DNA of 9,081 bases from Peptostreptococcaceae bacterium (GTDB lineage Bacteria > Bacillota_A > Clostridia > Peptostreptococcales > Anaerovoracaceae), in NCBI GenBank assembly GCA_016650135.1, contig JAENWH010000057.1:1-9081 (forward strand), written 5' to 3'. The notes under the pieces are model-generated. The model saw only the letters and a list, made by a program, of their open reading frames with translations, was not told where the DNA came from and did not search any database. This document shows positions 1-9,081 of this stretch, one piece after another. Each line of letters opens with the position of its first letter. Positions within the stretch are counted from its first letter, which is position 1. Both the position numbers and the translations under genes were made by a program.

Positions 1-329
1 AGATTCTGTCCAATGAGATAGGACTGGAGATACATGTATCCCACTTCCCTCCGGGGACCTCCAAGTGGAACAAGATTGAGCACCGCTTGTTCAGCCACAT
101 AAGCAAGAACTGGAGGGGAAGGCCCTTGGTTTCGCTGGCAGTCATCATCAGCCTGATAGGATCGACGACGACAAAAAAAGGTCTGAGAGTGAGATGTGGC
201 ATCGATACCAACGAGTATGAGAAAGGCCTCAAGGTCTCAGATAAGGAGCTTGGGGAGCTCAATATCAGCAGACATGAGTTCCATGGAGAATGGAATTATT
301 GGATATCTCCGTCGGATACCTTTGCTTAG
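1..329 (+). CDS. ISAzo13-family transposase, C-terminal fragment (5' end outside window)
   Basis: The open frame is entered at base 3 and runs to TAG at 327-329, giving about 108 residues of the C-terminal part of a DDE-type transposase. The stretch HFPPGTSKWNKIEHRLFS is the recognisable block of ISAzo13-family (Rhodopirellula-type) transposases; the Glu in NKIEHR is probably the last acid of the catalytic DDE triad (inference from family knowledge). Further family-like blocks follow: NWRGRPLVS, a TTTKKGLRVRC stretch and HGEWNYWISP near the C-terminus. No stop or frameshift is visible in this part. An ATG at 87 exists but lies inside the conserved region, so it is not the true start. GC content is about 50%, well above the glycan genes that follow, which fits an inserted element at the edge of the locus. 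Whether the rest of the element is intact cannot be seen. Confidence 0.85.
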   Translation, partial: ILSNEIGLEIHVSHFPPGTSKWNKIEHRLFSHISKNWRGRPLVSLAVIISLIGSTTTKKGLRVRCGIDTNEYEKGLKVSDKELGELNISRHEFHGEWNYWISPSDTFA

Positions 330-337
330 TTTATTTT

Positions 338-363
338 TTTACAGTTCCTTAGTAGCCTGTAAA
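338..363. repeat. 7-bp inverted repeat just after the transposase (possible IS end)
   Basis: TTTACAG (338-344) and CTGTAAA (357-363) are perfect inverted arms around a 12-base loop, 8 bases after the transposase stop. The T-run precedes the stem on the + strand, so this is not a canonical intrinsic terminator. The segment TTACAGTTCCTTA (339-351) is a candidate right terminal repeat of the element. The other end lies outside the window, so this cannot be confirmed. Confidence 0.35.
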
Positions 364-463
364 CACTAATTCTTCAATTCGATTGGAGAGCGTTGCTAAA
401 GGTATTATGTTTTTGAGGTCACATAGTTACAAAATTTTGGGATTTTAGGTAGGATATTTATTT

Positions 464-1738
464 GTGAAAAAAGAAAAAAAGTTTTTTACCGCTTTGGTAG
501 TGTTTTTGCCGATTCTGTCATTATATAAGACTCCAGTTCCTGGGTTTGATCTTGGAACGTTGGTATTAATTCTTTCATGCTTTCTTTATTTGCTTCGAAA
601 ACGGCTTATTTTTACCCAGAATAAATTTTTTTTTATTTTTACAATTTATGTTTTTATTTTTTCATTAATTAGTTATCTTTTATTAAAAAAACTTAATACT
701 GATACACTTTTAATTTTTCTTCGTTTAGCAAAATTTTCTTTATTTTCAATTTTTTTTATGATGTTTGATATGTTTGATTTTGAATTTGGTATTATTTGGT
801 TAAAAAGAATTACTCTTGTAGCCGTTGTGATGATTATTGTTCAAACGATTTCCGTAAATATATTTCATTTTTATGTTCCTGGAGTTATTTATCGATTTGC
901 GGATGCCCAAGTGTATGCAGACCAAATACAGAAAATGAAAGATAGTGGTATGAGTTCTTTATTCTTTTTTCGCCCTAGCTCAATATTTTATGAGCCTGGA
1001 CAGTTTGCCCAGTACTGCTATGTGTATCTTTGTTATTGTTTATTTAGTGAAAAGAGAATATCCCGAGAAAATTTATTTAATTCTGTATTTATAAGTATCG
1101 GTCTTATCCTTTCCACTTCAGGTCAAGGCATTCTTATTCTAACATTTTTTTGGATTGGTTTTGGGTTGAATAACTTCTTTTCGCAAAAATTTTCATACTT
1201 CAAATTATTTTCTGGGATTTTTTTATTAGTTACAATAATATTTGCTTTTTCGGTTATTCTTAAACTACCTATTTTTTCAAAAAGTATGGATAGAGTAATT
1301 GATAATTCTTCTGGGTTTCATTTTGGAGTGGCTGTTTATGGAAGGTTTTTAAGCTACTCTTTGCTCAAAGATTTGTCACTTTATGATTTTTTATTTGGGG
1401 TTGGATTTGGTAATGTTACTATGTATATGCCTACAGTTTCGCAGATAATTCATACTAGTGGTTTGTTTGGAATTGTGTTATTTTTCTTGTTTTTAGTTTC
1501 TTCTTTTTTTAAGGGAGATTCTTTTCAGAAATGGGGAATTATAGTCTTTTTCGGACTTTGCATTGGAGCAAATCTCTTTACAGCAGTGAATATATGGTTT
1601 TATTTTAGTTTCTTTTTGAGTCGTCGGAAAAATATAATGTTCCAAAAATATGCTAAAAGTGAATATTTGCTACATTCTTCGTGTCAGTCCGTAGAACCAC
1701 GCACTGATATTTTTCAAACTGGGGTTAATATACGATAG
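464..1738 (+). CDS. Wzy-like O-antigen/capsule polymerase (multi-pass membrane protein)
   Basis: A 424-residue, very hydrophobic protein with about ten probable membrane helices (near residues 8-20, 28-45, 53-75, 80-101, 112-135, 178-194, 208-233, 240-267, 330-350 and 357-385). Wzy proteins join lipid-linked repeat units on the outer face of the inner membrane. Family-like signals are the loop RPSSIFYEPGQFAQY (about 170-184), resembling the Arg/Glu-Pro-containing Wzy loop, a second Arg-containing loop around GRFLSYSLL (293-301), and FGVGFGN (321-327). The start is GTG at 464, preceded by AGGTAGGA at 447-454. Sequence conservation in this family is poor, so an O-antigen-ligase-like (WaaL) role cannot be excluded. 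The coding sequence is extremely AT-rich (15-17% GC in places). The last 30 or so residues form a polar tail after the final helix, encoded by DNA with higher GC, and may come from altered flanking DNA. Confidence 0.7.
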   Translation: MKKEKKFFTALVVFLPILSLYKTPVPGFDLGTLVLILSCFLYLLRKRLIFTQNKFFFIFTIYVFIFSLISYLLLKKLNTDTLLIFLRLAKFSLFSIFFMMFDMFDFEFGIIWLKRITLVAVVMIIVQTISVNIFHFYVPGVIYRFADAQVYADQIQKMKDSGMSSLFFFRPSSIFYEPGQFAQYCYVYLCYCLFSEKRISRENLFNSVFISIGLILSTSGQGILILTFFWIGFGLNNFFSQKFSYFKLFSGIFLLVTIIFAFSVILKLPIFSKSMDRVIDNSSGFHFGVAVYGRFLSYSLLKDLSLYDFLFGVGFGNVTMYMPTVSQIIHTSGLFGIVLFFLFLVSSFFKGDSFQKWGIIVFFGLCIGANLFTAVNIWFYFSFFLSRRKNIMFQKYAKSEYLLHSSCQSVEPRTDIFQTGVNIR

Positions 1739-2258
1739 CAGCCATGGAGGATTAGGATGCTGTTAGTGGGAAACCCAGTTGGAGGAGATTTTTTTATCTC
1801 AAGAAAAATGTCCTTGACATTACCACCCAGTTTGTATTGAATACATTTCAGCCCTATTGGGTCTGGCTTTCGGCAAGCTTGGCCTCATATTCCTCAACGG
1901 AGATCATGTTTTGGGCAAGGCATTGACCCGGTATTCTTCGGTAACGAGGGACAGGTCTTCTTGGCTTACGTTCTAGGGCATGAGGGGCTCAAGGATGTCC
2001 CTACCGATTTCCCAGCTTACGGGAACTGCACTTTTCATGAATACATATGTGAATTTCCCAAAAAAGTTCCACTAAAAACCAACACCAGCGCCTGCGTTAG
2101 CTTTTTCCCCCAGCATTCAGGAAGTTCATCATCTCCTCGAAGCTCCTTCCTGGTAATATCAAGGAGATTATTCTTCATATCAACTAGACAATAAGTTGGG
2201 AATTTGAGTACGATACAGTTTGGAGATTCAAGCTAAATCGTTCAAATAAAAAAGTCAT
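1739..2258. other. Gene-free GC-richer stretch, probably decayed inserted DNA
   Basis: No convincing intact gene lies here. The GC content of the middle (about 50% at 1921-1980) contrasts with the AT-rich genes on both sides and resembles the insertion-sequence fragment at the window start. Short protein-like pieces are readable on the minus strand in different frames. One, from 1907 back to 1854, begins MISVEEYEAKLAESQTQ. Another runs from 2178 back to 2035, begins MKNNLLDITRKEL and can be read further upstream without a stop to about 2238. An overlapping frame gives SFEEMMNFLNAGGKS. This pattern of broken pieces is what a degraded transposase or other accessory gene would leave. I do not recognise the family. 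A + strand open frame at 1961-2194 is low-complexity in appearance, has no good ribosome site and is not accepted. Confidence 0.45.
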
Positions 2259-2279
2259 ATGTATTTTTTCAGAGGTTTT

Positions 2280-3209
2280 ATGAATTATTCTATAGTTATA
2301 ACCACCTATAATGGGGCTAAATACCTTTTAGAGCAATTGGATTCAATCCGGTTGCAAACTATTCCACCGGATGAAGTTTTAATTTTTGATGATCGATCGA
2401 CGGATTCTACTCCCAAACTTATTATAGACTATATTGATAAGAATGAATTGTCTTGGAATTTTGTAATAAATGATCGAAATCTTGGATGGAAAAGAAATTT
2501 TATGCAAGGGATTTCAAAGGCAACAGGCAATATTGTTTTCCTGTCTGATCAAGATGACGTGTGGCTATTAGATAAATGTGAAAAAATGCTTGAGATAATG
2601 AAAAATATTCCAAGATGTAATCTTTTAATGTCAAATTATAAACCTGTTTTTATGGATGAAAGAAACAAATCTAGTTTTGGGATAAAAAGACAATCCAACA
2701 ATCGAAAGGTTATGAAGATACCGTGTAATGCAAAAAGATTATTTACTGTATATCGGCCAGGGTGTACATATTGTTTGCGAAAAGATTTTTTTAACAGTAT
2801 TGAAGATTATTGGTATGATGAGGTTGCTCACGATCGTTATATCTATAATTCTGCTTTAATTTCAGATTCCGTTTATCTATATAATTATAGGGCAATAATA
2901 TTTCGCCGGCATAATAGAAATAATAGTCCTAAGAATATTCGTACATCAAAGAATAGAATAAGTGGAATTGAATATCTTGAAAAATTATTTAATGTATTTT
3001 TTGGAAATATTGATTTATTTACTAGCCAAAATCAAGATAAATCATTAGAAGGTCTCAATAGAGTACTAGAATTTTGTCAGTATAGAGATCTTTATTACAA
3101 ATCACCAACATTGGTTTGTTGGTTTAAAGGGTTTATTAGATATCATAAAATTTATCCTTCATTTAGATCTATATTTAGTGATTTGTATATAGTCCTTAGA
3201 AAACGGTAA
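2280..3209 (+). CDS. Family 2 glycosyltransferase (GT-A fold, rhamnosyltransferase-like group)
   Basis: A 309-residue inverting glycosyltransferase acting at the cytoplasmic face of the membrane during repeat-unit assembly. It begins with the GT2 hallmark SIVITTYNGAKYL (residues 4-16). The nucleotide-binding DDRSTD is at 37-42 and the metal-binding SDQDDVW at 89-95 (DxD = D90/D92, with D93). HDRY at 184-187 sits where the catalytic acid region is expected, and FRRHNRNN at 208-215 matches the [YF]RxHxxN motif seen in many rhamnosyltransferase-like members. Donor and acceptor cannot be read from sequence. An rfbA gene downstream makes dTDP-rhamnose a plausible donor (inference). I chose ATG 2280 because AGAGG (2271-2275) lies just upstream and it gives the usual GT2 N-terminus; an in-frame ATG at 2259 would add seven atypical residues. 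The gene is AT-rich like its neighbours and ends 72 bases before the next gene. Confidence 0.88.
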   Translation: MNYSIVITTYNGAKYLLEQLDSIRLQTIPPDEVLIFDDRSTDSTPKLIIDYIDKNELSWNFVINDRNLGWKRNFMQGISKATGNIVFLSDQDDVWLLDKCEKMLEIMKNIPRCNLLMSNYKPVFMDERNKSSFGIKRQSNNRKVMKIPCNAKRLFTVYRPGCTYCLRKDFFNSIEDYWYDEVAHDRYIYNSALISDSVYLYNYRAIIFRRHNRNNSPKNIRTSKNRISGIEYLEKLFNVFFGNIDLFTSQNQDKSLEGLNRVLEFCQYRDLYYKSPTLVCWFKGFIRYHKIYPSFRSIFSDLYIVLRKR

Positions 3210-3281
3210 ATCTTGTGAACATTGGATTCAAATACTAACCGTTATTCATTTGAAAATGAAGGCGACTTTTAAAGGAAGAAT

Positions 3282-4175
3282 ATGAGTAGAATAAAGAGAA
3301 GTGTTGCGCAATTATTGGGAGCAAAAATAATCAATGTTGCTATTAAGATAAGTAATTTTGCTTCTTGGAAGGATTTAAAAACTATTAGAAAAAATAAAAT
3401 ATTGCGAAACAAATACATTGGAAAAAGTTGTTATATTATTGGAAATGGGCCTTCTTTAAAAAACCAAGATTTAAGTTTATTAAAAGATAAATTTGTATTC
3501 ACAGTAAATCTTGCAACAAAGTTGTCTTCATTTTCTTCAATTCAGACGAATATTCATCTTTTGACTGATTTACGGTTTCTTGATTTTGATCCTGATTTAG
3601 AAGACGGTCATGCAATTATTGAGGTAATGAAGAATGTGAATTTGGGTTCCTCTCCTATTGTGTTTTTGCCGATTAAGGCTAAATGCAAAATAGAAGAATT
3701 AGGATTGGAAAAATTCATGGATTTTAATTATTTTAAAAATCCTTTATACTTTGATGAAACATTTTCACAATATGTTGATTTTTCAAAATTGGTTCCTGAT
3801 TTTCCTACAGTAGTCCAAAGTGCAATAATGTTTGCTTATTATATGGGATTCCGAAAGATTTATTTATTGGGCTGTGATTGCACTGGTTTTCTGACGCTTG
3901 CCAAGTCTTATTTAAATAGTATTGACGAAGATTGTTATGCTTATAGTCTTTCAAAAACTGATAAACAAAGAATTATAAATACGAATACAAAATATAATTC
4001 AATTGAAGCCGAACTATACTCTTCTGCGAAAATATTTGATAATTATAAATACATTAATTCATATTTAAAAAAAAAGGGATGTGATTTGGTTAACTGTACT
4101 GATGGGGGGCTTCTAAGTAAAATACCTCGGCAAGATTTTAAACAAAGTTTACAAGAATCATGGAATTTTTCTTAA
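3282..4175 (+). CDS. DUF115 / GT42-like protein, possible glycosyltransferase
   Basis: A 297-residue protein. After a basic N-terminal stretch of about 45 residues comes KSCYIIGNGPSLKNQDLSLL (48-67). This GNGPSL nucleotide-binding loop followed by a Leu-rich helix is shared by DUF115 (MptE-like) proteins and GT42 sialyltransferases of the Cst type. Later, MGFRKIYLLGCDCTGF matches the second conserved block of both groups (G-[FY]-x-x-I-Y-L-x-G-x-D). NCTDGGLLSKIPR near the C-terminus resembles the DUF115 ending. GT42 enzymes transfer sialic acid from CMP-sialic acid, and a CMP-sugar synthetase-like gene lies directly downstream, so use of that CMP-sugar is an attractive inference, not something the sequence proves. 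The start is ATG 3282 with AGGAAG at 3273-3278. Base composition (about 23-30% GC) groups it with the upstream glycosyltransferase rather than with the downstream genes. Confidence 0.65.
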   Translation: MSRIKRSVAQLLGAKIINVAIKISNFASWKDLKTIRKNKILRNKYIGKSCYIIGNGPSLKNQDLSLLKDKFVFTVNLATKLSSFSSIQTNIHLLTDLRFLDFDPDLEDGHAIIEVMKNVNLGSSPIVFLPIKAKCKIEELGLEKFMDFNYFKNPLYFDETFSQYVDFSKLVPDFPTVVQSAIMFAYYMGFRKIYLLGCDCTGFLTLAKSYLNSIDEDCYAYSLSKTDKQRIINTNTKYNSIEAELYSSAKIFDNYKYINSYLKKKGCDLVNCTDGGLLSKIPRQDFKQSLQESWNFS

Positions 4176-4205
4176 CCTGTAATTCACAATATATTTTCCC
4201 TCCGT

Positions 4206-4236
4206 GGAATGTTTGTATTCTTATAACTTTTTTTTT
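4206..4236 (+). terminator. Weak candidate intrinsic terminator
   Basis: GGAATG (4206-4211) can pair, with two G-U pairs, with TATTCT (4216-4221) around a TTTG loop. A run of nine T bases follows at 4228-4236, separated from the stem by six bases. The stem is weak and the gap to the T-run is long, so this is only a possibility. It lies at the boundary between the AT-rich genes and the GC-richer block. Confidence 0.2.
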
Positions 4237-4238
4237 GG

Positions 4239-4266
4239 TTTTCAGATATTATAAATATGGTAAAAT
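4239..4266 (+). promoter_or_regulatory. Candidate sigma-70-type promoter for the CMP-sugar block
   Basis: TTTTCA (4239-4244) and TAAAAT (4261-4266) are separated by 16 bases and lie 37 bases before the next start codon. The -10 hexamer matches consensus at five of six positions and the -35 at four of six. In AT-rich DNA such matches arise by chance, so support is modest. The placement, in the only sizeable gap upstream of a tightly spaced gene group, makes it reasonable. Confidence 0.3.
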
Positions 4267-4302
4267 AAATTAGTTGGCTTTTATTTGATAGGAGGAATAC
4301 AG

Positions 4303-4968
4303 ATGAAAACAGTAGTAATGATTCCAATAAAACTAAATAATGAACGAGTTCCTGGAAAAAACATCAAGAAATTCTCGGACGGTACGCCGCTTATGGAACT
4401 AATTCAGAGAGCTTGTCTTGGTGCAAAGAGTGTCAATCAAGTTTATGTGTATTGCAGCAAGCCGGAAGTTCAAGAGTATCTTGTTGATGGTGTCATATAC
4501 CTTCATCGACCGGAATATCTGGATGGCAGTGGTGCGAATTGCAACGACATTATCCGTGAATTCATGAAAGTTGTTGATGCAGATATTTATATTGCATCTC
4601 ACGCAACGGGTCCTTTTACTAAAAGCAAAAGCATTGATGTTTGTGTTCAGAAGGTCGCTTCCAGAGAATTTGACTCGGCATTCCTTGCACAAAGAATGCA
4701 GGAGTTCTTATGGCAGAACGGATTGCCAATGAACTTTGATATTCAACATTTTCCACGTACACAAGATCTAACACCTATTTATTCGGAATCTTCTGGTGCC
4801 TATGTTTTTTCCAAAGAAACGTTTCTGAAGTTCGACCGCAGAGTAGGTGTTAAACCATATATTCATGAGATTGACGATATTGAAGCGATAGACATCGATT
4901 ATCCAATTGACTTTGAAATAGCCAATGCCATTTATAAGGAGATAGTGAAAAATGAACGTTCAAATTAA
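4303..4968 (+). CDS. NeuA/KdsB-type cytidylyltransferase (CMP-sugar acid synthetase-like)
   Basis: A 221-residue enzyme of the acylneuraminate cytidylyltransferase family, which joins CMP from CTP to the anomeric hydroxyl of sialic-type acids. The start is ATG 4303 with GGAGG at 4291-4295; an upstream TTG at 4285 lies before the ribosome site and is rejected. The N-terminal loop reads MIPIKLNNERVPGKNI (6-21): RxPGKN is kept, but the usual glycine-rich ARGGSKG is replaced by IKLNNER. The mid-region ADIYIASHATGPF matches the family's D-x-x-x-x-x-x-x-T-[SG]-P strand. SESSGAYVFSKETF fits the family's product-side strand. IDIDYPIDFEIANAI near the end carries the metal-binding aspartates (D197, D199, D203). 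The 3' end overlaps the aldolase gene by 17 bases, indicating translational coupling. The substrate is not a standard sialic acid by any direct sign, and the altered loop argues for a divergent one. Confidence 0.82.
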   Translation: MKTVVMIPIKLNNERVPGKNIKKFSDGTPLMELIQRACLGAKSVNQVYVYCSKPEVQEYLVDGVIYLHRPEYLDGSGANCNDIIREFMKVVDADIYIASHATGPFTKSKSIDVCVQKVASREFDSAFLAQRMQEFLWQNGLPMNFDIQHFPRTQDLTPIYSESSGAYVFSKETFLKFDRRVGVKPYIHEIDDIEAIDIDYPIDFEIANAIYKEIVKNERSN

Positions 4969-5986
4969 CGATTGCACAATTCGTGATGGCGGATATTTGC
5001 TTGCAAAGAATTCTCCTCCGGAATTTGTTAACGGTGTGATTGAAGGACTGGTATCTGCTGGTATTGACATAGCTGAAATAGGATTCCTTCAAAACGTAAC
5101 AAACGGTGAAACACTTGTATACGGAAATTCTGTAGAAGCCAGAAAGTTTATTCCACATTCAGTAGGTTCTTATCGGTTTACTGGGTTTTGCGATAACAGC
5201 CGCTATTCACTAGAGAAGCTTGATGATTTCGACGGAAAGGCTTTTGAGTATCTCAGAATATCCTTTGCAAAACATGAAAGCAAAGCGGCGCTTGAGTTCG
5301 TTGCGGGAGCAAAAAAGAAGGGTTACAAGGTTTTTGCAAATCCTATGGATGCGCCATCCTATACAGCTGAAGAGAGAAGCGAGATGATTTCCGCTATAAA
5401 CGATATACAGCCGTATTGCTTTTCAATCGTTGACACCTTTGGGACAATGTATTTAGACGACCTTCGCAATTTTTTCGACCAAGTCAATAAGGAACTTGAC
5501 AAATCGATAAGAATAGGACTCCATTCTCATAACAATCTTCAGCTGTCTAACGCATTGGCAGAAGTGTTTATCGATTTAGCTGCTACGGCAGACAGGGACA
5601 TTGTTGTAGACGCATCACTATATGGTATGGGCAGAGGTGCCGGAAACGCATCGACAGAAGTCATTGCAAGCTATCTAAATACTAAGTATGGAAAGAAGTA
5701 TGATTTGGGAGTAATCTTCGATATAATTGAGAAGTATATCCTTTCTCTCAAGTCTTCTGTTATTTGGGGATATGATTTGCCGATGTTTGTTTGCGGAGTT
5801 GAGGGTTCTCATGTAGATAATATATCCTATCTTCAAAAGAATGTAAAATGCAACTTGAAAGAGATGCTGCAGATTATTTCATGTATGGATATTTCAAAAC
5901 GTAAGCGGTATGGCTCGAATTACTCTAAGACAGATTTTTCTGACTTAGAAAAAGCATGTAAAAAATATCTTGTTGATAGGAGGTAA
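4952..5986 (+). CDS. DRE-TIM metallolyase aldolase (HMGL / 4-hydroxy-2-oxovalerate aldolase-like)
   Basis: A 344-residue TIM-barrel aldolase. It opens with NDCTIRDGGY (6-15), the DxT[LI]RDG signature whose Arg and Asp (R11, D12, with D7) bind substrate and a divalent metal. Other family blocks are AEIGF (41-45), SIVDTFG (158-164), the metal-binding HSHNN (191-195) and GMGRGAGN (225-232). These match 4-hydroxy-2-oxovalerate aldolases better than HMG-CoA lyase, though no partner acylating dehydrogenase is present. Enzymes of this group make or break the bond in 4-hydroxy-2-oxo acids using pyruvate. Next to a CMP-transferase and a KdsC-like phosphatase, condensation of pyruvate with a sugar aldehyde is the likely role (inference). 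ATG 4952 has AAGGAG at 4936-4941, overlaps the upstream gene by 17 bases, and the gene ends in the ribosome site of the next gene. A homocitrate-synthase-like acyl transfer role is a less likely alternative. Confidence 0.85.
   Translation: MNVQINDCTIRDGGYLLAKNSPPEFVNGVIEGLVSAGIDIAEIGFLQNVTNGETLVYGNSVEARKFIPHSVGSYRFTGFCDNSRYSLEKLDDFDGKAFEYLRISFAKHESKAALEFVAGAKKKGYKVFANPMDAPSYTAEERSEMISAINDIQPYCFSIVDTFGTMYLDDLRNFFDQVNKELDKSIRIGLHSHNNLQLSNALAEVFIDLAATADRDIVVDASLYGMGRGAGNASTEVIASYLNTKYGKKYDLGVIFDIIEKYILSLKSSVIWGYDLPMFVCGVEGSHVDNISYLQKNVKCNLKEMLQIISCMDISKRKRYGSNYSKTDFSDLEKACKKYLVDRR
5978..5983 (+). promoter_or_regulatory. Ribosome binding site that fixes a TTG start at 5992
   Basis: AGGAGG lies within the last codons of the aldolase gene, 8 bases before TTG 5992. 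It supports TTG as the start of the ThDP gene; the first residues it yields match the usual N-terminus of the family. Stop and start are only 5 bases apart, so coupling is expected. Confidence 0.75.
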
Positions 5987-5991
5987 TTGTA

Positions 5992-6525
5992 TTGAACTGT
6001 GCAGAATATCTGGTAGATTTTTTAATCAAACATAATGTTACAGATGTGTTTGGTTACTCTGGGGGCTACATTGTTCCTTTTATGGACGCTCTAAACAGCA
6101 GCAGGAATAAGATCAAAGTTCATGTTTGTTACAATGAGCAGGGATGTTCGTTCGCTGCAAATGGATTTGCTCGTGTAAGCGGTAAATTAGGAGTATACTT
6201 TACTACTTCAGGGCCTGGAGCGGTCAATGCTTTTGGTGGACTTGCTGATGCTTGGTTTGACAGTATACCCATTATGGGAATTTGCGGAAATGCGCCAAGT
6301 ACAGAATTAAAAGGCTATTCTGGCGTGCGTCAAATCGGATTTCAGGAAATGGATATTGTCTCTATGACTCGTAGCATTACGAAATATTCTGTGACACCGA
6401 ATAATGGAGAGGAATTTCCGAAAATAGTAGACATGGCCTATAACATGGCACTGTTAGGCAGAAAAGGAGGCGTTATAATTGATTTTCCATTCGACATCCA
6501 GAAAACCAGTGTTGATAGTAGGTAA
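5992..6525 (+). CDS. Acetolactate synthase-like ThDP enzyme, N-terminal (PYR) domain; first half of a split or broken gene
   Basis: 177 residues corresponding to the first domain of acetolactate synthase/YerE-type ThDP carboligases, which decarboxylate pyruvate and transfer the two-carbon unit. Visible blocks are DVFGYSGGYIVPFMDAL (18-34), NEQGCSFAANGFAR (48-61) with the catalytic Glu E49, TTSGPGAVNAFGGLADAWFD (71-90), FQEMD (117-121) and the domain end GVIIDFPFDIQK. The last true family residues are at about 6504. After that, six out-of-frame codons lead to TAA at 6523-6525, while the rest of the enzyme continues in the +1 frame. The start is TTG with AGGAGG upstream. ThDP binds between this domain and the PP domain of another chain, so this half alone is not an enzyme. 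It is either a frame-broken gene or one chain of a two-chain enzyme. Confidence 0.85.
   Translation: MNCAEYLVDFLIKHNVTDVFGYSGGYIVPFMDALNSSRNKIKVHVCYNEQGCSFAANGFARVSGKLGVYFTTSGPGAVNAFGGLADAWFDSIPIMGICGNAPSTELKGYSGVRQIGFQEMDIVSMTRSITKYSVTPNNGEEFPKIVDMAYNMALLGRKGGVIIDFPFDIQKTSVDSR
6465..6470 (+). promoter_or_regulatory. Internal ribosome-binding-like site before TTG 6479
   Basis: AGGAGG lies inside the end of the first ThDP half, exactly 8 bases before TTG 6479. That is the same sequence and spacing as the site that starts the first half (5978-5983 to 5992). It could allow separate translation of the second half. It may equally be chance, because these bases also encode the conserved Lys-Gly-Gly of the first domain. 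Confidence 0.4.
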
Positions 6526-7588
6526 TGGTGCAAGATCTGCAGAAGCAGCTGAAGCTATTCATCAGTTTTCAGAGAAAACAAGAATTCCTGTGTTAACAAC
6601 TATGAACGCTGTGGATTTGGTACAAGATGAAGATAAAATTGGGTTTGTTGGTACATATGGCAATCGAGCAGCAAATATTATAATTGCCGAGTGTGATTTA
6701 TTGATTTCTGTCGGAGCAAGACTGGGCTTAAGACAAACAGGCCGTGTTCCCGAAAGATTTGCCCCGAATGCAAAGCTTATTCGTGCAGATATTGACCAAT
6801 ATGAACTTATCAGAAGCATAAAACCAGATGAGGAAAAGTACCTAACCGACGCGAAAGAATTCATGCTTAAGCTCTTAGCAGAGGATATTCCTGAATATAC
6901 CGAGTGGCGAGACAAATGTTTTGAAGTAAAAGTGACGCTTGATGGCGTTGACAACGTAATAGGTAATCTGGTGATTGAGAAGATATCTTCGCTTTTACCC
7001 GAAAACCCGGTTGTTGCTGTTGATGTTGGGCAAAATGAATGCTGGGCAGCACAATCTTTAACGTTGAAAGGAAAAGAAGGAAGAATACTGATTAGCGGTG
7101 GATACGGTTCAATGGGATGTGGTCTACCGTTTGCAATTGGCGCGTCCATCTCGAAGAGTTACGACACAGTATTCTGTATTACGGGAGACGGCGGACTGCA
7201 AATGAATATTCAGGAACTCGAAACCGTTGTACGTGAAAAAATCCCTGTAAAGATATTTGTCCTTAATAACCATGCGCTGGGAAAAATCAGTGAGGTTCAA
7301 ATGAAGTCATATGGCGAAAGATATGCACAAACAACAGAAACCAGTGGGTATTCTGTTCCGGATTTTGAAAAGGTCTCAAAAGCATATGGAATCAAAGCGA
7401 CTACGTTGTCCTCGTATGAACAGCTTGACGATTATTCTAGTTGGTTGGCGGATGACGAACCTTGTTTGATAAACATAACTCTTCCGTGGAATACTTTGCT
7501 TATTCCTAAAATTGATTTTAGTACCATGGAGGTAATGCCAAAACTTGACCAAATAACAGCGGTAACCGTGCAAAGGATACTTGAGTGA
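6479..7588 (+). CDS. Acetolactate synthase-like ThDP enzyme, central and PP domains; second half of a split or broken gene
   Basis: Up to 369 residues if TTG 6479 is used. The first seven are out of frame with the parent domain, and homology begins at RKPVLIVGNGAR (8-19), the start of the central domain. CDLLISVGARLGLRQTGR is the nucleotide-fold core of that domain. The PP domain follows, with GYGSMGCGLPFAIGASI and the full ThDP motif GDGG (236-239) to NN (263-264), with the Mg-binding residues D237 and N263/N264 region present. PDF and YG motifs near the C-terminus also fit acetolactate synthases. There are no other stops or missing motifs, so decay, if any, is recent. The 30-40 residues that normally link the two domains are absent at the junction. 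The exact substrate is unknown; YerE-like addition of a two-carbon unit to a sugar, or making an aldehyde or acetolactate-like precursor, are possibilities. Confidence 0.85.
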   Translation: MIFHSTSRKPVLIVGNGARSAEAAEAIHQFSEKTRIPVLTTMNAVDLVQDEDKIGFVGTYGNRAANIIIAECDLLISVGARLGLRQTGRVPERFAPNAKLIRADIDQYELIRSIKPDEEKYLTDAKEFMLKLLAEDIPEYTEWRDKCFEVKVTLDGVDNVIGNLVIEKISSLLPENPVVAVDVGQNECWAAQSLTLKGKEGRILISGGYGSMGCGLPFAIGASISKSYDTVFCITGDGGLQMNIQELETVVREKIPVKIFVLNNHALGKISEVQMKSYGERYAQTTETSGYSVPDFEKVSKAYGIKATTLSSYEQLDDYSSWLADDEPCLINITLPWNTLLIPKIDFSTMEVMPKLDQITAVTVQRILE

Positions 7589-7768
7589 TTTACTTCTTCT
7601 AAGGAACAAAGACTAAGAATTTGATGATAGTTGGCTTTTGGACAGAGTTTGTTGGGGTTGCTATCGCAAAACTACCCATTTGCTGACATCATTGATTAAA
7701 GGCCTTCTTGGGCTGGTGTTTTTGCAGGAATATGCTTGTGAATGCTTGTTATTTTCAGAGGTGAGATA
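7589..7768 (+). other. Intergenic gap of 180 bases within the block
   Basis: The other genes of this block overlap or nearly touch, so this gap stands out. I see no hairpin with a T-run and no good promoter. No open frame here has recognisable protein similarity. A deleted or decayed small gene is possible but unsupported. Confidence 0.4.
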
Positions 7769-8746
7769 ATGCTAAGGTTTCAAAAACAAATAAGGTTTAT
7801 TGTTATGGATGTTGACGGAACGCTCACCGATGGCAAAATATACATGGGTGATTCCGGCGAGATGATGAAGGCCTTTGATATAAAGGATGGCTGCGGAATA
7901 AAAGAAATTCTCCCTAAATGCAGTATTGTTCCTGTGATAATAACAGCGAGGAACAGTGAAATACTTAAAAACAGATGCAAGGAACTTGATGTTCTTGAAA
8001 TACATCAGGGTGTCAGGAATAAAATTGGCGAGTTGGAGAAAATACTCACTGACTTCTCCGAGAGAGACGGTTCTAGCTATTCCTTACAAAACGTTGCTTA
8101 TATTGGAGACGACCTTTTGGATATACAGTGTATGGAGCCAATCAAGGAAGCTGGCGGACTTGCTGTGTGCCCCAGCGATGCGGCAAGAGAAGTCGTTGAT
8201 ATTGCGAGTTTTATCTGCACAAAAAAAGGCGGAGACGGTGCCATCAGAGAGTTTATTGACTGGATTGCGGGTATTAATTCAGGTAGCAGGTCTGAACTTG
8301 AAAGGATTAGAACCATTTCCTCTGTTGCTTATGGCTTTATCACCAACTTTAATTCGAGTACGAACTCTGATGGGAGATATGACCTTGGGAATGGTGTGTT
8401 TGCAAATGTCATGTCATACATCACAAAAGAAGCGTGCCTGACCTGCTATGAAACCCATAAGAAATATATTGATGTTCAATATGTGATCTATGGAACAGAA
8501 ATCATGATGACTCAGCCTGTCGAAGAACTTAATGATTGCGTTTTCACACCGTACAACGAGGCAAAGGATATCACATTTTACGATAACAATTTTGGGAAAG
8601 TTAGCATTCTTAATCCGGGGGATTCTATTATTCTTTACACAAACGATGCGCATAGAGGTGCAATTTCAGTAAGCCGTCCGACCCCAGTGAGAAAGATCGT
8701 TGTAAAGGTTCCGCTTAGTAACGTAGCGGGCAAAGGGAAAATGTAA
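7769..8746 (+). CDS. Fusion: KdsC-like HAD phosphatase + YhcH/NanQ-like (YhcH/YjgK/YiaL) anomerase domain
   Basis: A 325-residue two-domain protein. Residues 1 to about 170 are a C0-type HAD phosphatase like KdsC or the NeuA-linked sialic acid-9-P phosphatases. They show DVDGTLTDG (14-22, nucleophile D14, acid/base D16), IITARN (57-62), K85, GDDLLD (113-118) and a KdsC-like ending CPSDAAREVVDIA followed by a GGDGAIREF stretch. Residues about 195-320 are a YhcH/YjgK/YiaL (DUF386) domain with GRYDLGNGVFANVMSY, HKKYIDVQY (230-238) and NPGDSIILYTNDAH (H295), the usual conserved sites. E. coli YhcH (NanQ) interconverts sialic acid anomers. Together they suggest dephosphorylation of a ulosonic acid phosphate and supply of the anomer used by the CMP-transferase. 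I chose ATG 7769 because GAGGTGA (7758-7764) precedes it; ATG 7742 would add nine unconserved residues upstream of that site. Confidence 0.85.
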   Translation: MLRFQKQIRFIVMDVDGTLTDGKIYMGDSGEMMKAFDIKDGCGIKEILPKCSIVPVIITARNSEILKNRCKELDVLEIHQGVRNKIGELEKILTDFSERDGSSYSLQNVAYIGDDLLDIQCMEPIKEAGGLAVCPSDAAREVVDIASFICTKKGGDGAIREFIDWIAGINSGSRSELERIRTISSVAYGFITNFNSSTNSDGRYDLGNGVFANVMSYITKEACLTCYETHKKYIDVQYVIYGTEIMMTQPVEELNDCVFTPYNEAKDITFYDNNFGKVSILNPGDSIILYTNDAHRGAISVSRPTPVRKIVVKVPLSNVAGKGKM

Positions 8747-8941
8747 ATCAGAATTCATTTGAGAATGTATTATCGGTACAGGGAAGGACTTCCATATTTT
8801 CCACAGAAACCGCTGAAATAGGGCATTCAGAGCGTGATTTGGCGATTTGAGGTACCATGTAGGATTTCCACAAAATCCATATCTGCAGAAACTATCAGGA
8901 TTTTTCAAGGGTTCTGTAGTAGGATTTCAAAGGAGAGTCTA
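8747..8941 (+). other. Intergenic region before rfbA with a small stem-loop
   Basis: No supported gene occurs in these 195 bases. GGATTT (8862-8867) and AAATCC (8873-8878) form a 6-bp stem with a five-base loop; no T-run follows directly, so it is not a clear terminator. The region separates the variable block from rfbA and could hold the rfbA promoter, but no confident -35/-10 pair is visible. A minus-strand open frame (8666-8908) runs into the phosphatase gene and is not credible. Confidence 0.4.
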
Positions 8942-9081
8942 ATGAAAGGAATTATCTTAGCTGGTGGAACTGGTTCTCGTCTTTATCCACTGACCATGGT
9001 AACCAGCAAACAGCTGTTGCCTGTCTATGACAAGCCCATGATCTATTATCCCTTGTCTACCCTCATGTTGGCAGGCATCAA
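8942..9081 (+). CDS. rfbA: Glucose-1-phosphate thymidylyltransferase, N-terminal part (3' end outside window)
   Basis: The first 46 residues of RfbA/RmlA, which makes dTDP-glucose from glucose-1-phosphate and dTTP, the first step to dTDP-rhamnose. [18 protein letters not shown] is the nucleotide-binding signature, with Ser in place of the more usual Thr in [21 protein letters not shown] (about 24-40) is the highly conserved RmlA continuation. ATG 8942 has AAAGGAG at 8929-8935. GC content here is about 42-45%, close to the preceding block and above the AT-rich glycosyltransferase genes. The gene probably begins a conserved rfbACBD-type group beyond the window (inference). It supports a deoxysugar such as rhamnose in the glycan. 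Confidence 0.93.

Follow-up and report, generated by a model that had tools for sequence, protein, structure and literature searches.

A conserved gene cassette with a split acetohydroxyacid synthase-like enzyme and its possible role in making CMP-activated sugar acids

We report a conserved gene cassette in a 9,081-nucleotide stretch of DNA from a Peptostreptococcaceae bacterium (contig JAENWH010000057.1, positions 1 to 9,081; this whole stretch is called the window below). The cassette encodes a cytidylyltransferase (CMPT), an aldolase-type enzyme (ALD), the two halves (ThDPn and ThDPc) of a thiamine diphosphate (ThDP) enzyme resembling acetohydroxyacid synthase (AHAS), and a KdsC-type phosphatase (KdsC) with or without a DUF386 domain. 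These proteins may make a sugar acid of the ulosonic type, activated with cytidine monophosphate (CMP), without NeuB or KdsA. We put the chances of this at even, and we infer every chemical step in it.

A sequence-only reading had placed four activities here in one same-strand block. Pfam and NCBIfam searches recovered all of them on the + strand, in a block with a GC content of 0.37-0.43 (sliding windows), and bore out the fusion of a KdsC-like phosphatase to a NanQ-like domain. The ThDP enzyme, which had been taken for one gene, turned out to be two overlapping open reading frames (ORFs), an arrangement conserved in relatives. The block consists of the following features.

4303..4968, + strand: CMPT, cytidylyltransferase of the CTP_transf_3 (NeuA/KdsB/PseF) superfamily, 221 amino acids (aa); Pfam PF02348
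4952..5986, + strand: ALD, DRE-TIM (HMGL-like) aldolase-type enzyme, 344 aa; Pfam PF00682
5992..6525, + strand: ThDPn, PYR half of the AHAS-like ThDP enzyme, 177 aa, TTG start, catalytic Glu E49; Pfam PF02776
6463..6481, + strand: probable translation start of ThDPc inside ThDPn, Shine-Dalgarno-like AAAAGGAGG, about 8 nt, then TTG (6479-6481); sequence and codon conservation
6479..7588, + strand: ThDPc, TH3 and PP half, 369 aa, ThDP motif GDG...NN, AHAS-type arginine R85; Pfam PF00205 and PF02775
7742..8746, + strand: KdsC-type HAD phosphatase fused to a DUF386 (YhcH/NanQ-like) domain; TIGR01670 and TIGR00022

Conservation of the cassette

We built a profile from ALD and 22 of its relatives and scanned one genome per species. 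The scan returned 155 stretches matching the pattern; a relative is encoded in 116 of these, from which the best 80 were retained. Identity to ALD in these loci leaves a gap between 50% and 39%, where we chose to set the boundary between group A (42 loci, 50-71% identity) and group B (38 loci, 33-39%). Since ALD is the seed, its presence in 42 of 42 group A loci is by construction and meaningless alone. Direct matches to the other members were found in most group A loci: CMPT in 38 of 42, ThDPn in 40, ThDPc in 41 and KdsC in 36. Clustering of the selected ORFs of at least 90 aa into families gave ALD 42, CMPT 39, ThDPn 40, ThDPc 40 and KdsC 36, and the next family occurred in at most nine loci. 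The four families of the sequence-only reading thus co-occur elsewhere as a unit. DUF386 was present in 15 of the 42 loci and fused to KdsC in 14 of them.

Incomplete loci were scored as misses. One lacks CMPT and ThDPn (L003), one contains ALD only (L037), L018 has a ThDPc of just 297 aa and no KdsC, L038 has no CMPT and a late-starting ThDPc ORF, and the contig of L039 begins within ALD. KdsC is also missing from L005, L023, L036 and L040. A metagenomic protein, P0018, is a fusion of CMPT and ALD and the only one longer than 400 aa among the 120 homologues listed.

According to their record titles, the hosts include Lachnospiraceae, other Clostridia, Treponema and another spirochaete, Bacteroidales, Synergistaceae, Enterorhabdus and a metagenome-assembled genome (MAG) labelled Thermoplasmata archaeon, and span at least five phyla. 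Because the block is conserved across genera and phyla, it is a conserved unit, real beyond chance. It appears to be a horizontally exchanged cassette of the surface-glycan type in gut and rumen bacteria. The cassette in the MAG labelled Thermoplasmata archaeon is nested among Clostridia in the tree, reflecting either transfer or a binning error. Three loci carry a second cytidylyltransferase, 34-44% identical, inside or beside the cassette (L001:12722-13408, L016:3509-4168 and L034:8646-9317). E. coli genomes gave no DNA-level match to the block. Matches were found in 155 plasmid records, all below 60% identity, with the 20 listed at 22-28%. Viral contigs yielded one relative, a partial ALD (IMG/VR) with 54% identity over residues 44-215 at the start of its stretch.

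A scan seeded with ThDPn, in five overlapping genome sets (397, 393, 245, 394 and 383), tested for bias from the ALD seed. It found 13 genomes: the five chosen centres, four from the ALD set (G014, G017, G024 and G028) and four new ones (G335, G1040, G1305 and G1378). No ALD, CMPT or KdsC was found in the fetched 15-19 kb stretch of any of the four new genomes. The ThDP enzyme is therefore strongly associated with ALD, though not in every genome, and the cassette is rare, with two or three genomes per set, centre included.

The four aldolase-free loci share a different neighbour. An IspD-type cytidylyltransferase lies directly upstream of the split pair in three of them (L094, L095 and L097) and one gene away in L096. 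LicD is near two of the four, an NAD epimerase-type protein occurs in two, one has a TarF-type transferase with a HisC-like aminotransferase, and one has a short-chain dehydrogenase. L094 and L095 retain the TTG junction. L096 is also near a phosphonate-type cluster, in which a TPP enzyme and an Fe-ADH accompany a phosphoenolpyruvate (PEP) mutase joined to nucleotidyltransferase domains. In a tree of 58 second halves, the split type forms a single clade that excludes 14 single-chain group B proteins, and nested within the cassette rows is one clade made up of the four IspD-associated rows; the tree is midpoint-rooted, and the tool warns that long branches meet between the split and single-chain types. 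This suggests that the IspD context is a derived variant of the cassette's split ThDP enzyme.

A ThDP enzyme in two halves

In the window, the PYR ORF and the TH3-PP ORF are in different frames and overlap by 47 bases. Both halves were found in 40 of the 42 group A loci, always as separate ORFs, and a single ORF matching both was found in none (0/42). The search for ThDPc homologues admitted proteins of up to 1.75 times the query length. The 120 homologues listed were 355-392 aa long, and the PYR motif was present in 0 of 120. ThDPn had a match at 69-82% identity in 39 of 41 genomes, and the other ThDPn matches in the 41 genomes (E-values up to 1e-30, open frames of 388-612 aa) were at most 47% identical. 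A pseudogene or a sequencing error in the ThDP gene is very unlikely and was rejected, as the split is conserved in relatives.

This looks like a naturally split ThDP enzyme, with the PYR and PP parts in separate ORFs of the relatives and catalytic residues in each. E49, F117-Q118-E119 and K131 of ThDPn were each conserved in 41 of 41 aligned rows. In ThDPc, GDG and the second Asn of NN were found in 41 of 42 rows, the first Asn in 40 and R85 in all 42. The position of the AHAS Trp is occupied by Ile in 33 and by Val in 7 of the 42 rows. These positions are named after their roles in AHAS. Among solved chains, 5ahk from Pseudomonas protegens is closest to both halves. Scored apart against TIGR00118, the halves reached 152.3 and 237.9 bits, and the cut-off of 538.35 was set for one chain, which is unfair to a split protein.

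ThDPc probably has its own conserved start inside ThDPn. In 33 of 40 loci its ORF is in the +1 frame relative to ThDPn and overlaps the end of that gene, while six Bacteroidota loci (L024, L027, L031, L033, L035 and L042) have a four-base ATGA stop-start overlap. The second ThDP ORF of L038 starts late, and L040 has another codon in place of the TTG, with an ATG further on. Among the 120 listed ThDPc homologues, 96 start with M or L followed by I-F, which are the residues from the TTG start. The ThDPn codons lying over this start, ATT, GAT and TTT (Ile, Asp and Phe), were each found in 34 of 34 TTG-type rows, the window included, against backgrounds of 0.44, 0.72 and 0.69 (simple binomials of 6e-13, 1e-5 and 3e-6, kinship ignored). 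For conserved degenerate codons before position 155, the mean dominant-codon fraction was 0.50. Upstream, the Gly codon that completes AAAGGAGG was GGA or GGG (GGR) in 33 of 34 TTG-type rows against a background of 0.51 (binomial 3e-9, kinship ignored), and GGR stood at this Shine-Dalgarno glycine in one of six ATGA-type rows.

Comparison with synonymous recodings speaks less well for such a start. Shine-Dalgarno energies were below the recoded mean in just 24 of 34 rows (mean -13.6 versus -11.6), and the window itself scored -11.6 versus -11.4 when recoded, with a fraction of 0.547 of the recodings as low. Because this energy signal is weak, the case for the start site rests on codon conservation. 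Alternatively, a programmed +1 frameshift could join the two ORFs into one AHAS-like chain instead of two subunits. Such a shift would agree with the +1 frame seen at 33 of 40 junctions, and the internal Shine-Dalgarno-like stretch could stimulate it. However, the ATGA overlaps suggest reinitiation, c-frame stops in L040 precede its own ATG (by eye), codon conservation begins at the TTG, and the codon before the ThDPn stop varies (AGG, CGG, TGG and GGG), leaving no fixed slippery site there. Codon conservation at the start and the ATGA loci therefore favor two separately started proteins, and we consider the frameshift very improbable.

A possible route to a CMP-activated acid and its alternatives

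In the route that we propose, ThDPn and ThDPc would combine into a heteromer of the AHAS-like kind and, from a 2-oxo acid that is probably pyruvate, produce a phosphorylated carbonyl compound, X-P. The addition of a pyruvate unit by ALD would turn X-P into a phosphorylated 4-hydroxy-2-oxo acid of the 3-deoxy-ulosonic type, and these two steps could take place in either order. The KdsC domain would then take off the phosphate, superfluous by then, and the DUF386 domain, where present, would equilibrate the anomers. CMPT would move CMP from cytidine triphosphate (CTP) to the anomeric position, and a CMP-sugar transferase would add the sugar to a glycan; the candidate here has a Maf/GT42 fold, and in some other loci it would be of the GT52 or polysialyltransferase type. 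In the derived variant, the split ThDP enzyme would hand X-P to the IspD-type cytidylyltransferase. The carbonyl of X-P would be reduced or transaminated, its phosphate would become part of a cytidine diphosphate (CDP) link, and LicD or TarF-type enzymes would carry out the phosphodiester transfer. A ThDP product bearing both a carbonyl and a phosphate would fit the two contexts and would explain why a phosphatase accompanies CMPT and not IspD.

A more specific version of this route is tentative, and we lean against it being correct in full. The product would be a CMP-sugar of an undescribed type. Two carboligations would make its skeleton from central metabolites, the heteromeric split AHAS-like enzyme catalysing one and a non-canonical DRE-TIM aldolase the other. 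This sugar might be an ulosonic acid with a branch or a methyl group, and in the derived variant the IspD-type enzyme would channel the same ThDP product into CDP-activated units.

Three of the cassette proteins could be assigned to superfamilies or subfamilies. CMPT (CYTIDYLYLTRANSFERASE) belongs to the CTP_transf_3 superfamily (PF02348, 49.2 bits, cut-off 22.6), aligns with the CMP-Neu5Ac synthetase 1qwj over residues 12-208 and keeps the D-I-D motif. The KdsC-type domain scored 133.7 bits against TIGR01670 (cut-off 106.95) and contains the DxDGTLTDG motif; D13, D15, T19, D113 and D114 (numbered from the codon at 7772) were at least 95% conserved in 36 rows. Its scores fell below the equivalog cut-offs for KdsC proper (134.9 versus 208) and KDN-9-phosphatase (102.8 versus 180). 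The DUF386 domain scored 102.8 bits in Pfam (cut-off 26.5) and 88.2 against TIGR00022 (cut-off 45.5), and 65 against the NanQ anomerase equivalog NF040884, below the cut-off of 160. The ATG at 7769 is more likely than 7742 to be the start of the KdsC-DUF386 ORF. The intergenic gap between ThDPc and KdsC is about 150 bases (7589-7741); in many relatives these genes nearly touch.

ALD is a member of the HMGL-like superfamily (PF00682, 67.7 bits, cut-off 29). Its best solved relative is 3dxi (78.5 bits, residues 1-285), followed by HOA aldolases. The 3dxi protein is BVU_2661 of Bacteroides vulgatus, a 'putative aldolase' that is much remoter from ALD than group A is, and a literature search found no published function for it. 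The HOA aldolase DmpG uses His21 as its catalytic base, along with an R-D pair and an H-x-H motif that supplies metal ligands. In an alignment with DmpG (1nvm), R17-D18 is kept as R11-D12 and the H-x-H motif is present as H191 and H193. Its missed HOA cut-offs and its replaced catalytic His, given below, nevertheless place ALD outside the characterised HOA family, so that pyruvate aldol chemistry is a presumed activity.

The cassette is in general found away from PEP-dependent synthases, as the sequence-only reading had supposed. No such synthase was found among the scanned ORFs of the window (Pfam and NCBIfam) or in the conserved unit. A comparison of three NeuB and two KdsA proteins from host genomes with the locus ORFs (some loci are cut by contig ends) found NeuB within 10 kb in 0 of 42 group A loci and KdsA in one. 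This KdsA belongs to L001, where it is flanked by a KdsB-like ORF and a KpsF/KdsD-type gene. G005 also has a KdsA on the contig of its locus, about 10 kb off and just beyond the locus. Two outcomes that would have spoken against the sequence-only reading, a NeuB or KdsA close by and a lack of joint occurrence in other genomes, thus did not arise in general. Eleven of 41 genomes, many of the 41 being MAGs, had no NeuB match and no KdsA over the cut-off (G003, G009, G011, G014, G016, G022, G025, G027, G029, G032 and G040). Nine of these match neither protein, and G016 and G027 give weak matches to the KdsA profile. The genome of Butyrivibrio sp. INlla18 (L010) gave a single NeuB match and none to KdsA.

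D-arabinose 5-phosphate, supplied by a KpsF/KdsD-type isomerase (SIS-CBS), was considered as the aldehyde, and the isomerase was rejected as a part of the cassette. Its family occurs in six of 42 group A loci and is directly upstream of CMPT in L001 and L033. KpsF was over the cut-off in 15 of 41 genomes, and because 14 of these also have KdsA over the cut-off, we read it as a canonical Kdo gene. KpsF was over the cut-off in none of the nine genomes matching neither NeuB nor KdsA (0/9), two of which, G009 and G040, gave sub-cut-off scores of 95-98 bits.

Several observations weigh against the proposed route. NeuB (PF03102) was found in 18 of the 41 whole genomes and KdsA over the cut-off in 15. 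KdsC is absent from six of the 42 group A loci and DUF386 from 27, and half (4/8) of the non-centre genomes found with the ThDPn seed have a split ThDP enzyme without a nearby aldolase. The earlier assignment of CMPT to the NeuA/KdsB kind stands at the superfamily level but goes no further, since its first motif is divergent (PIKLNNER versus PAR in 1gq9 and 9t4z) and it misses every NeuA, KdsB and PseF cut-off listed (50.1 versus 205.7 for PseF, 34.1 versus 255 for the KdsB type). ALD scored 79.5 against TIGR03217 (cut-off 286) and 90.7 against PRK08195 (cut-off 229), missing both HOA cut-offs, and it is also below the IPMS/HCS cut-offs listed. Its catalytic motifs, once read as intact, are so at the R-D pair and the H-x-H motif but not at DmpG His21, which aligns with Tyr15, a residue kept in at least 95% of 43 rows. 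Given the missed HOA cut-offs and the replacement of the catalytic His by Tyr, ALD might not be a pyruvate aldolase. In AHAS this type of arginine binds the carboxylate of the acceptor, and since ThDPc keeps the AHAS-type arginine, a 2-oxo acid may take the acceptor role in place of an aldehyde phosphate. The scheme first drawn from the sequence agrees with the co-occurrence of the cassette and the rarity of NeuB and KdsA nearby, but leaves unexplained the split ThDP enzyme near an IspD-type gene, without an aldolase, in four genomes.

Group B points to a different order of events. Its ALD relatives (L043-L080, e.g. L043:9989-11611) are mostly about 540 aa long, with an ALD-like aldolase at the N-terminus and a C-terminal domain of about 200 aa that had no Pfam match in the one scanned. 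The structural matches listed all lay within residues 1-340, and a GT42-like fold for the C-terminal domain would be a guess. Single-chain ThDP enzymes occur in 23 of the 38 group B loci, and families that look by eye like RfbF, RfbG and RfbH in 15, 14 and 16. A YerE-like label for these ThDP enzymes would come from their context; the one scanned, that of L043, scored best against acetolactate synthase models, below their cut-offs. In this group, with its CDP-sugar-type genes, the ALD relatives may feed the ThDP enzyme, possibly by supplying 4-hydroxy-2-oxo acid donors for branched sugars. If the same held for the cassette, ALD would make a 4-hydroxy-2-oxo acid donor, the ThDP enzyme would transfer its hydroxyacyl unit to another carbonyl, and the resulting C-branched acid (compare erwiniose and caryophyllose) would be dephosphorylated and CMP-activated. 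According to section 6 of PMC12247030, the donors of ErwE and MMAR_2332 are 4-hydroxy-2-oxo acids, which sets a precedent. We nevertheless find this rather unlikely for the cassette. With the split pair lacking a nearby ALD in four genomes, the ALD product is unlikely to be an obligate donor there, and the conserved unit contains no dehydratase that would form a keto-sugar. The split enzyme is also AHAS-like, with the arginine in 42 of 42 rows, a position where the L043 enzyme of group B carries Leu (by eye).

The cassette product could also be CMP-activated but not ulosonic, with the HMGL-like protein performing Claisen-type or other chemistry on an acyl-CoA or another 2-oxo acid. The distance of ALD from characterised families, with all listed HOA and IPMS/HCS cut-offs missed, fits this idea, as do the exchange of its catalytic His for Tyr and the divergence of CMPT. 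We judge this, too, to be unlikely, and retain the CMP-activated ulosonic-type acid as the product that we propose.

Neighboring genes and comparison with known systems

The window has the following further features.

464..1738, + strand: hydrophobic protein, Wzy-like by look only (translation judged by eye), without a Pfam or NCBIfam match
2259..3209, + strand: GT2 glycosyltransferase; Pfam PF00535
3282..4175, + strand: possible CMP-sugar transferase of GT42/GT29/Maf fold (Pfam MptE-like, DUF115); fold comparison
8942..9081, + strand: beginning of an RmlA-type nucleotidyltransferase gene that runs past the window end; TIGR01207 over 45 aa

The order on the + strand is the end of an ISAzo13-family transposase, the Wzy-like ORF, GT2, the MptE-like protein, the CMPT-ALD-ThDPn-ThDPc-KdsC-DUF386 block and the start of RmlA. 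The transposase is represented by its C-terminal end (3-329) at the window edge, beside the glycan locus. GC content is 0.40-0.43 at 1501-2250 and 0.26-0.30 at 2251-4250.

The protein at 3282-4175 is possibly a CMP-sugar transferase. Its nearest solved folds are Maf and the GT42/GT29 sialyltransferases. This reading rests on the VIA-align Z and not on Foldseek, which gave TM-scores below 0.5 and one odd row (PdxJ) among the five best. A shared fold shows no function, and this one is also common to MptE and SteA, which are not glycosyltransferases, a further point against the route. Elsewhere, a neighboring family occurs in five loci, its L015 member matching GT52, and an L011 protein matches polyST. 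Some glycosyltransferases near the cassette are thus of types that use CMP-sugars.

If our reading is correct, the cassette represents a route to CMP-activated sugar acids that is invisible to gene searches based on NeuB and KdsA and is thinly spread over at least five phyla. Acidic surface sugars would then be expected in hosts from which they are believed to be absent, and the cassette would provide chemoenzymatic synthesis with a compact set of enzymes. The split AHAS-like enzyme looks like a clean natural cut of a three-domain ThDP enzyme at the PYR boundary, reused in two cytidylyl-activation pathways. Among the papers listed by a literature search that left most subscription journals uncovered, none describes this gene set or a split AHAS-like enzyme.

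Several known systems come close to this one. AHAS and 5ahk are the closest solved relatives of ThDPn and ThDPc, which keep the catalytic Glu, FQE, Lys, Arg and ThDP motif. Unlike AHAS, the enzyme here is encoded by two ORFs, has Ile or Val at the Trp position in 40 of 42 rows and is in a unit with no other family of amino-acid biosynthesis. Split ThDP enzymes are a known kind. The transketolase of Carboxydothermus has its PYR and PP parts on separate chains, with the linker also missing (PMC7661550), and RhiEF, of the RhiEF/ComDE kind, is a heteromeric ThDP decarboxylase (PMC12141560). In our case, a three-domain AHAS-like enzyme is cut between PYR and TH3-PP, and the second start lies inside the first gene. 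The YerE-like branched-sugar enzymes YerE, ErwE, MMAR_2332 and JanthE are likewise ThDP enzymes of the decarboxylase superfamily in surface-sugar loci, as described in PMC12247030, where a CDP-keto-deoxysugar is the reported substrate of YerE and ErwE; the split enzyme forms its own clade, distinct from the 14 single-chain group B rows used. ALD shares with HOA aldolases of the DmpG/BphI type the fold superfamily, the R-D motif and the HxH motif, and differs in missing TIGR03217 and PRK08195, in having Tyr15 for His21 and in the lack of a dehydrogenase family in the conserved unit.

The Kdo and Kdn/sialic acid pathways (KdsA-KdsC-KdsB; NeuB-type synthase, KDN-9-phosphatase and NeuA) are known routes to CMP-ulosonates. 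The cassette resembles them in its KdsC-type phosphatase, CTP_transf_3 protein, DUF386 domain and sialyltransferase-fold neighbor, but has HMGL-like and ThDP enzymes instead of a PEP-dependent synthase. While split ThDP enzymes and CMP-ulosonate routes are both known, the combination of a split AHAS-like enzyme with a route of the CMP-ulosonate type may be new, and its product may be a new sugar.

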